Positions 34,055-42,777 of a stretch of 64,000 bases of DNA are shown piece by piece. Source of the stretch: Bradyrhizobium barranii subsp. barranii. Its GTDB lineage: Bacteria > Pseudomonadota > Alphaproteobacteria > Rhizobiales > Xanthobacteraceae. Numbering within the stretch: the stretch's first letter is position 1; every line of letters starts with the position of its first letter. The position numbers were made by a program, and so were the translations under genes. The stretch covers positions 8,043,501 to 8,107,500 of the forward strand of contig NZ_CP086136.1 of NCBI RefSeq assembly GCF_017565645.3, written 5' to 3'. Below the pieces are notes generated by a model. The model saw only the letters and a list, made by a program, of their open reading frames with translations. It was not told the DNA's origin and searched no databases.

Positions 34055-34159
34055 CCCTCACCCTGAGGAGCTTGCGAAGCAAGCATCTCGAAGGGCGAGG
34101 CCACAGTCGGGCCGCATGGTTCGAGACGCGCGCGGTGCGCGCTCCTCACCATGAGGGCC
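34055..34159. repeat. Compound palindromic repeat, class A (copy 1)
   Basis: Two inverted half units: CCTCACCCTGAGGAGC with GCATCTCGAAGGGCGAGG, and CATGGTTCGAGACGCGCG with CGCTCCTCACCATGAGG. It lies just after the FecR gene and next to a class B repeat. The half-site order is the reverse of the copies around 42.2 and 42.7 kb. Confidence 0.8.
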
Positions 34160-38698: not shown

Positions 38699-38810
38699 CC
38701 CTCATCCTGAGGAGCGCGGAACGCGCGTCTCGAAGGATGAAGGCCGAGCTGCATCAGCCGGGCCTTCATGGTTCGAGACGGCGCTTACGCGCCTCCTCAC
38801 CATGAGGAGT
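38699..38810. repeat. Compound palindromic repeat, class A (copy 2)
   Basis: CCCTCATCCTGAGGAGCGCG with CGCGTCTCGAAGGATGAAGG, then GGCCTTCATGGTTCGAGACG with CGCCTCCTCACCATGAGGAG. The two hairpin units are inverted to each other. The repeat ends a few bases from the methyltransferase stop codon and may serve as its transcript end. Confidence 0.82.
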
Positions 38811-42157: not shown

Positions 42158-42305
42158 CATCCTTCGAGACGCCCGCCTCCGGCGGGCTCCTCAGGATGAG
42201 GGCGGAGTGCGTGGCCGCAAATCTGTCCACAGTGCTTGCACCACGTCACGGATGCCAGTTAGCCTCATCCTGAGGAGACCGCGAAGCGGTCGTCTCGAAG
42301 GATGG
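42158..42305. repeat. REPIN-like compound repeat, class A (copy 3), upstream of the GIY-YIG gene
   Basis: About 148 bp. The left unit is CATCCTTCGAGACGCCCGCC with GGCGGGCTCCTCAGGATGAG; a spacer of about 60 bp starts GGCGGAGTGCG and ends GTTA; the right unit is GCCTCATCCTGAGGAG with CGTCTCGAAGGATG. The two units are inverted to each other. The copy at 42607-42758 has the same order, the same orientation and the same spacer ends. It finishes about 10 bp before the GIY-YIG start codon. Confidence 0.85.
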
Positions 42306-42315
42306 GGCGGGCACG

Positions 42316-42648
42316 ATGACAGAAGGCGCGTACCTCTACATTCTCAGATGCGTCGACGGTAGCTATTACATCGGCACGACGCGTACCGAGCTTGAGCTCA
42401 GAATCGCGCAGCACAACGCCGGCACGTTCGGCGGCTATACGAAGTCACGCAGGCCCGTGACCCTGGTCTTCTCGCAATGGTTCGTCCGGATTACTGACGC
42501 GATCGAATGCGAGCGCAAACTCAAGAAATGGAGCCGCGCCAAGAAGGAAGCCTTCATGCGCGACGATTTTGCCGAGCTGCATGAATTGGCGAAGCGCGGA
42601 TCTCATCATCCTTCGAGACGCCCGCCTCAGGCGGGCTCCTCAGGATGA
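42316..42648 (+). CDS. Small GIY-YIG endonuclease between two REPIN-like repeats
   Basis: A 110-residue single-domain GIY-YIG protein. The motif is YLYILRCVDGSYYIGTT (6-22); R29 in ELRIAQHNAG is the likely catalytic arginine, followed by GYTKSRRPVTLVFSQWF. The glutamate in ECERKLKKWSRAKK is the likely metal ligand. These UPF0213/YhbQ-like proteins are structure-specific DNA nucleases or of unknown role. The last 15 or so residues (HHPSRRPPQAGSSG) and the stop codon are supplied by the downstream repeat, so the repeat has extended the gene. Matching compound repeats lie on both sides in direct orientation, resembling RAYT-REP loci. Confidence 0.88.
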   Translation: MTEGAYLYILRCVDGSYYIGTTRTELELRIAQHNAGTFGGYTKSRRPVTLVFSQWFVRITDAIECERKLKKWSRAKKEAFMRDDFAELHELAKRGSHHPSRRPPQAGSSG

Positions 42649-42758
42649 GGGCGGAGTGCGCAGCTCGAGGTTTTCCTCGAAGGACCTGCACGAACCTACG
42701 AGGGCTGGTTAGCCTCATCCTGAGGAGCGCGCTCTCGCGCGCGTCTCGAAGGACGAGG
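42607..42758. repeat. REPIN-like compound repeat, class A (copy 4), downstream of the GIY-YIG gene
   Basis: About 152 bp. CATCCTTCGAGACGCCCGCC with GGCGGGCTCCTCAGGATGAG, a spacer that starts GGCGGAGTGCG and ends GGTTA, then GCCTCATCCTGAGGAG with GCGTCTCGAAGGACG. The spacer interior differs from copy 3 and contains its own hairpin (CTCGAGG / CCTCGAAG). The first 42 bp are read as the end of the GIY-YIG gene. Confidence 0.85.
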
Positions 42759-42777
42759 CGTTCACACCGGAAGCCGC

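Follow-up and report, generated by a model that had tools for sequence, protein, structure and literature searches.

Why does a small, standalone nuclease gene lie between two copies of a palindromic repeat, and does the nuclease belong to the repeat? The question is raised by a GIY-YIG gene in the window, by which we mean the whole 64,000-nucleotide stretch analysed here (C1:8043501-8107500 of an 11.4-Mb genome). The reading that we prefer, at a probability of about 0.72, is that REP, nuclease and REP form one unit, a GIY-YIG counterpart of the RAYT REPtron, with the nuclease as the cognate enzyme of this class of REP.

The nuclease gene and its flanking repeats

The features concerned are given below by window coordinates, strand and description.

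42158..42201, minus strand: REP unit 1, upstream compound repeat; CCTC tag on the right end
42263..42304, plus strand: REP unit 2, upstream compound repeat; tail towards the gene, 11 bp 5' of the ATG
42316..42648, plus strand: standalone GIY-YIG nuclease gene, 110 codons; PF01541 E=4.9e-17, catalytic domain at residues 6-77
42607..42650, minus strand: REP unit 3, downstream compound repeat; tail towards the gene, covers the final 13 codons and the stop
42713..42754, plus strand: REP unit 4, second unit of the downstream compound repeat
34060..34152, no strand assigned: gene-free dimer of the class A family; cores 34060-34096 (plus) and 34116-34152 (minus), tails inward
38704..38803, no strand assigned: gene-free dimer of the class A family; cores 38704-38738 (plus) and 38768-38803 (minus), tails inward

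The sequence and a repeat finder agreed that two compound palindromic repeats in direct order (42158-42304 and 42607-42754), with two REP units in each, bracket the gene, as an earlier note on this DNA had described. The repeat that the note placed close before the start is indeed there, at 11 bp from the ATG at 42316 and not at the 10 bp given, and the one that it saw running across the stop begins 42 bp ahead of the end of the reading frame and encodes the last 13 codons and the TGA. Direct copies were detected at 42158-42211 and 42607-42660 (98% identical over 54 nt), at 42237-42282 and 42687-42732 (74%) and at 42286-42314 and 42737-42765 (79%), the spacing between the copies being 449-451 bp. 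Because the units run in the order minus, plus, gene, minus, plus, those adjacent to the gene point their untagged tails at it. In a class A REP unit, a CCTC tag is accompanied by an ATCCT/AGGAT stem, a GA bulge of 2 nt on the 3' arm, another short stem and an inner hairpin rich in GC. Folded as single-stranded DNA, the compound repeats reached z=-10.1 and -8.6 relative to shuffled sequences, none of 200 shuffles being their equal. Immediately beyond one unit edge stands GTTAG, which is not a GTAG tag.

Class A copies that the note had located near 34.1 and 38.7 kb were also recovered, but in the opposite arrangement, tails inward and with a short spacer. The outer stems of these gene-free dimers differ within the pair (ACCC with ATGG; ATCC with ATGG), and the gene-flanking compound repeats combine two ATCC units, tags inward, across a spacer of about 61 bp, so that two kinds of dimer occur in one genome.

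One 15-base class A arm has 47 exact copies at 42 sites in the 11.4-Mb genome (reversed control, 0), and the GIY-YIG locus is the sole place where two of the 42 sites lie <1 kb apart. For a given gene, having such sites on both sides within 250 bp has a chance of about 1e-6, but the probability that two of the 42 sites fall within 400 bp of each other somewhere in the genome is 0.06; the window case alone is therefore weak, and it is the relatives that decide. Gene-free dimers in this genome have their tails inward in 16 of 24 cases, with 12-32 bp between the units, so that the ordinary dimer resembles the unit minus its gene; in other genera, away from the gene, either polarity occurs about as often (24 with tails inward and 20 with tags inward, of 54).

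The protein proved to be the 110-residue, single-domain GIY-YIG protein that the note had named. It is of the YhbQ/Slx1-like type seen in UPF0213/COG2827, resembling 1ywl (E=9e-15) and 1zg2 (E=1.9e-13) by sequence profile, and it matched no PADLOC family and no NCBIfam model. In its predicted fold (pLDDT 84.8) the protein most resembles the same two UPF0213 structures, 1zg2 and 1ywl; next comes Slx1, at weaker E-values (0.013 and above). Slx1 is a nuclease that cuts branched DNA, and this kinship of fold would suit a putative hairpin or cruciform substrate.

Homologues and repeats in Bradyrhizobium

Homologues at E<=1e-10 were retrieved from 63 of 146 Bradyrhizobium genomes and fall into two groups, one 68-94% identical to the window protein (group A) and one about 50-58% identical (group B). 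By eye, the class A repeat of the window (CCTCATCCTGAGGAG...CGTCTCGAAGGAT) flanks the group A genes. The group B genes are flanked by its sister repeat, class B (CCGTCATCCTGAGGTGCGAG...GAGCCTCGAAGGATG), which abuts the start codon; the class A unit opens with CCTC-ATCCT, the class B unit with CGTC-ATCCT. Flanks were scored at 70 loci, drawn from 82 listed rows of which some are second pieces of one locus. A strict motif, defined as four paired bases around TGAG...TCGAA, stood on both sides at 39/70 loci and on at least one side at 68/70, and a relaxed motif at 53/70 and 69/70, respectively, although many of these loci share one chromosomal site and thus represent few independent events. The strict motif misses many flanks that are plain by eye, and we therefore report strict, relaxed and motif-free results together. 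Where both units were found, the nearest ones had their tails towards the gene at 34 of 53 loci.

One subgroup (for example, L060, L062, L064 and L065) has the dimer upstream only, and at that site the genome of the window (L025) carries a dimer without the gene; among relatives, the same dimer may thus occur with or without the gene. The reading frame is interrupted at no fewer than 7 of the 70 loci, which counts against our preferred reading. Intact genes are under purifying selection, with a ratio of median dN to median dS of 0.07 (16 group A genes) and 0.06 (29 group B genes). A contig titled 'Frankia sp. RB7' (JAUEPE010000005.1) encodes a protein 93% identical to that of the window, with class A repeats on both sides, and the name is probably wrong. 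Peptides such as HPELVEG may be traces of these repeats.

The number of repeats in a genome goes with the gene of the matching group. Class A arms had a median of 41 in the 37 carriers of a group A gene and of 13 in the 109 other genomes (p=9e-7), and for class B arms and the group B gene the figures were 16 (35 carriers) and 1 (111 others; p=2e-9). These p-values ignore phylogeny, for which the crossed pairs serve as a control: neither class A with group B nor class B with group A was associated in the 146 genomes (p=0.14 for each). Against the preferred reading, at least 10 class A arms were also present in 64 of the 109 genomes without a group A gene.

These counts bear on the alternative that the flanking repeats are merely control elements of the gene, acting as terminator, mRNA hairpin or nuclease-bound operator, and that the copies elsewhere in the genome are not spread by the enzyme. 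Strong hairpins, one of them 11 bp from the start and another supplying the stop, fit such a role, as does the class B repeat abutting the start codon; yet regulation alone leaves unexplained why repeat number tracks the matching gene and why the same repeats stand at tens of other sites, and we consider it unlikely.

Distribution in other Alphaproteobacteria

A profile built from 17 REP-flanked proteins matched at E<=1e-15 in 46 of 386 alphaproteobacterial genomes, and the flanks of 57 loci outside Bradyrhizobium were analyzed, of which two were too short for the similarity test. These genomes carry versions of one hairpin: TGAG and TCGAA do not change, and the stem around them varies without losing its pairing. 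Among 874 TGAG...TCGAA pairings within 300 bp of the genes (all loci pooled, Bradyrhizobium included), 531 had at least four of five outer pairs, the outer stems including ATCC/GGAT (301), ATGG/CCAT (31), ACCC/GGGT (26), ATGC/GCAT (19) and GCCC/GGGC (10).

Independently of any motif, the DNA upstream of each gene was compared with that downstream in both orientations, a score of 16 or more being taken as positive. Flanks were similar at 35/55 loci of the class survey compared with 7/322 control ORFs of the same loci, and at 62/80 named loci compared with 7/426 controls, although the 80 named loci share contigs with the genus and class surveys and are no separate sample. Motif counts, for which loci of at least 95 bits were set against ORFs >700 bp away, gave the strict motif on both sides at 22/51 loci vs 1/282 ORFs, the low 22/51 counting against the preferred reading; the relaxed motif was found on both sides at 27/51 vs 3/282 and on either side at 44/51 vs 30/282. 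With the motif halves reversed, no both-sides match was obtained in the 70, 57 and 80 loci. Nearest units had their tails towards the gene at 25/33 class loci and at 31/43 named non-Bradyrhizobium loci where both were found. The 51 loci lie in 42 neighbour contexts, defined as BLAST clusters of the nearest ORFs, which can overcount. Five low-scoring homologues (L270-L274) had neither the strict motif nor flank similarity, and the relaxed motif occurred downstream of L270 and L271.

Repeats were counted across the 386 genomes with the pattern CCTGAGN{2,32}TCGAAGG. At least 15 copies were present in 36/46 genomes with a close relative of the gene and in 24/340 without one (odds ratio 47), a cut that was chosen after the table had been seen, from per-genome counts and carrier lists that were copied into the scripts by hand, as were those for Bradyrhizobium; among genomes of 3 Mb or more the figures were 32/37 and 21/142. 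The 10 of 46 carriers with <15 repeats and the 24 non-carriers with 15 or more count against the preferred reading. In a PF01541 search of those 24 repeat-rich genomes, 12 were found to have another standalone GIY-YIG gene (E<=1e-11), two gave weak matches only (G390 and G491), nine had UvrC-length frames only and one had none (G152). Several of these GIY-YIG genes are bracketed by other palindromes (CGTCATTCCCGG..., CGTCATGGCCGGGCTTGACCCGGCCATCCAGG, CGTCATTGCGAGG...GAAGCAACCCAGG and GTCATCCCGAGCG...). Judged by eye, 9 of 17 such loci have a palindrome on both sides (L275, L276, L277, L279, L282, L283, L284, L300 and L303), L278 and L281 have it on one side and L285, L299 and L301 on neither, the other three (L280, L286 and L298; wrong strand or contig end) being left unjudged. 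That 9/17 lie between other palindromes hints at a general rule.

Phylum-wide sample and occurrence beyond the class

Unlike the class survey, a phylum-wide survey was run without a profile from REP-flanked proteins, using PF01541 at E<=1e-10 in 170 genomes. It yielded 80 standalone genes, taken from the top among the matches listed and omitting Bradyrhizobium, rows already covered, frames of UvrC length and some rows that came second or ranked lower. At a score of 16, flanks were similar for 21/80 of these genes among the matches listed, compared with 6/445 controls. The positives cluster: at a score of 14, similar flanks were found for 22/23 loci of two clades among the matches listed, which hold the relatives of the window gene and a 'VYILASxxNGTLYIGVTSNL' type, and for 1/57 loci of YhbQ-type and other GIY-YIG families. 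This clade split was drawn after the flanks had been seen, and a test with shuffled labels serves as its check: on a 133-leaf protein tree the flank label required 13 changes, compared with a mean of 43.7 and a minimum of 36 in 500 shuffles.

Most repeats of the second clade are plain hairpins tagged GTC, and the nearest units end in CCA in 37 of 48 cases. The tagged hairpin was detected on both sides at 18/40 loci of this clade, 10 of the 18 having tails inward, and both figures count against the preferred reading; it was detected on both sides at 1/57 other GIY-YIG loci. The genome of the window holds a second gene of the REP-linked clades (C1:10349369-10349593), which belongs to this second clade and has on each side a tagged palindrome of another kind, GTCGTCCCTGCGAACGCAGGGACCCATAACC, so that there are two gene-repeat pairs in one genome. 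A third standalone GIY-YIG family (C1:125361-125570 in the same genome, and loci L299, L301 and L312) lies just 3' of the apparent 3' end of a tRNA gene; it has GC-rich palindromes of its own, and no CGTC-type REP was seen on both sides.

The alternative that small accessory genes, GIY-YIG genes included, simply settle as passengers in REP-rich intergenic DNA is in keeping with a gene that comes and goes beside a persisting dimer and with the abundance of the repeats in these genomes. Yet among control ORFs whose intergenic DNA measured 100 bp or more on each side, only 7/188 had similar flanks, as did 2/61 short ones, and the figure for members of other GIY-YIG families was 1/57; nor would settling account for the matching of gene group to repeat class or for the constant polarity, and we hold this explanation to be quite improbable.

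From a plasmid collection, 12 regions were hand-picked for taxonomic spread among 90 matches listed, and nine had a flank similarity of at least 16: Neisseria gonorrhoeae, Aeromonas, Azospirillum, Sinorhizobium, Shinella, Novosphingobium, Methylobacterium, Sphingomonas and Planktothrix (Cyanobacteriota). At the Neisseria locus the repeat is ATTCCCGC...GCGGGAAT, of dRS3 type, the nearest units are of opposite polarity and the gene is 68% identical to the query. Spirosoma (Bacteroidota) scored 14, and background scores were obtained for Photobacterium (9) and Bacillus subtilis yazA (8). On Azospirillum lipoferum plasmid AZO_p3, the repeat-flanked GIY-YIG gene sits between sufB and sufC in an otherwise ordinary suf order. 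The entries for N. gonorrhoeae (NZ_CP119140.1, 2.2 Mb) and Aeromonas caviae (NZ_AP026896.1, 4.9 Mb) are filed as plasmids and are of chromosome-like size.

Interpretation and proposed mechanism

GIY-YIG nucleases of the REP-linked clades are best read as standing to CGTC-type REPs as RAYTs stand to GTAG REPs, namely as their cognate enzymes, and the data suggest that they are the missing partners of one common bacterial repeat type. The earlier note had cast a GIY-YIG nuclease in the RAYT role for a repeat family and had named what would speak against this: homologues mostly without repeats, a repeat number independent of the gene, or flanking no more frequent than at unrelated genes. None of the three came about. 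Most Bradyrhizobium homologues are flanked (53/70 on both sides and 69/70 on at least one, by the relaxed motif), repeat number tracks the gene, including the matching class, and the strict motif stood on both sides of none of the 188 control ORFs that had 100 bp or more of intergenic DNA on each side. Flanking and repeat number, in a genome with no Y1 gene over the cut-off, support a role that the nuclease would, judging from sequence, plausibly play, and the pairing is wider than the note saw, extending to several repeat families and several bacterial classes.

What the data show is the flanking and its restriction to certain clades, the match between repeat class and gene group, the polarity, the tie of repeat number to the gene and purifying selection; binding, cutting and copying are inferred. 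In the mechanism that we propose, a REP would be exposed as a single strand, as may happen on the lagging strand, or extrude as a cruciform. The nuclease would recognise and bind the hairpin through its tag (CCTC or CGTC) and, in the class A family, would also read the constant GA bulge beside TGAG/TCGAA, the outer stem being free to vary as long as it is paired. It would then nick or cut at the recognised hairpin, and repair from another copy, a homing-like gene conversion, would spread and maintain the REP population. The gene itself may occupy the short-spacer position of an ordinary tails-inward REP dimer. GIY-YIG enzymes hydrolyse DNA, and copying would therefore be expected to proceed by cut and repair, in a homing-like manner, and not by transposition proper.

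The nuclease could instead be a host enzyme that polices REPs, clearing or resolving their hairpins and cruciforms, with repeats being many where control is needed. Kinship of fold with Slx1, purifying selection and the loss of the gene in many genomes all fit such a function, which nevertheless leaves unexplained why the gene should lie between the very repeats that it would destroy, and with fixed polarity; we rate it about as improbable as the passenger explanation. That a RAYT (Y1 transposase) moves these repeats, the GIY-YIG gene being incidental, was rejected as having next to no likelihood: RAYTs accompany GTAG REPs in other bacteria (excerpts of PMC3733652) and 45/146 Bradyrhizobium genomes have a Y1 gene, but the genome of the window has no Y1_Tnp match above the cut-off (one below), Y1 presence shows no link with the number of class A or class B repeats (p between 0.1 and 0.44, 146 genomes) and the strict motif occurred in none of 20 RAYT-like loci in the stretches checked.

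The preferred reading, of a nuclease cognate to the REPs on either side of it, can be widened, and to the wider version we give even odds. Standalone GIY-YIG proteins would then be enzymes dedicated to the CGTC REP superfamily, and evolving together with it, in Alpha-, Beta- and Gammaproteobacteria, Cyanobacteriota and perhaps Bacteroidota, each clade reading its own hairpin and multiplying its repeats by hairpin cutting and repair, and ordinary dimers would be derivatives of the enzyme-bearing unit. On this wider version, genomes would have a second, chemically different way to host REP populations besides RAYTs. A matching nuclease makes this a question for the bench, where the protein has only 110 residues, the hairpin is defined and class A vs class B provides a specificity control from the outset. 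It would also show REP populations paired with two unrelated enzymes and would account for many small GIY-YIG genes that have so far lacked an explanation.

Comparison with known systems

I-TevI is a GIY-YIG homing endonuclease, and homing enzymes of this kind share with the present proteins the superfamily and, if our mechanism holds, a homing-like copying by cut and repair; in the genes described here no intron or intein was seen, there is no separate DNA-binding domain, and the presumed target is a repeated hairpin, not a single site in a gene. Members of UPF0213/COG2827 (YhbQ and YazA; 1ywl and 1zg2) have the same single-domain GIY-YIG fold, but such repeats do not flank B. subtilis yazA or the genes of YhbQ/YazA type in the phylum-wide sample. 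Three COG2827 genes of unknown role are mentioned for Caulobacter in part of PMC1839093.

REPs tagged with CGTC were defined by Di Nocera 2013, mainly in Alphaproteobacteria, and include Neisseria dRS3 and Rickettsia RPE-4/RPE-6; according to excerpts of that survey (PMC3733652), they have an unpaired CGTC, TGTC or CCTC tag, a stem of 8-9 bp starting with AT, a loop of 4-5 bp, from which Bradyrhizobium CGTC-1 loops deviate, and often a CCA tail, and they 'apparently lack a dedicated transposase'. Class A (CCTC-ATCCT) and class B (CGTC-ATCCT) share the tag and the AT stem. The CCA tail is absent from class A and present in the second clade (37/48 nearest units), and the class A unit has a longer compound stem with a bulge. 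No dedicated enzyme is given in the excerpts of the survey, in which 'GIY' is absent from the text, whereas here a GIY-YIG gene appears as the partner. Neither 'palindrom' nor 'repetitive' occurs in the text of the GIY-YIG superfamily survey PMC1564403, and GIY-YIG and REPs are not linked in the relevant parts of PMC9465073 and PMC6006769; among the matches listed, in a literature that takes in neither preprints nor most subscription journals, there was no report linking GIY-YIG, UPF0213 or COG2827 genes with REPs.

The closest parallel is the REPtron, that is, RAYT (TnpA_REP) with GTAG REPs and REPINs. Common to both are a single small DNA-processing gene flanked by short tagged palindromes, the recurrence of these palindromes throughout the genome, often as inverted dimers, a cognate matching of enzyme and repeat, and a hairpin that bears both a tag and a bulge. 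For E. coli TnpA_REP, both the bulge and GTAG are important (parts of PMC8266576), and the constant GA bulge and tag seen here may be their analogues. The locus is not itself a REPtron, having neither a Y1 enzyme nor GTAG: a hydrolytic GIY-YIG nuclease stands in place of an HUH/Y1 transposase, the tag is CCTC, CGTC or TGTC in place of GTAG, no transposition chemistry is expected and mobility is putative. That it works like a REPtron is, on comparative sequence evidence, well supported.
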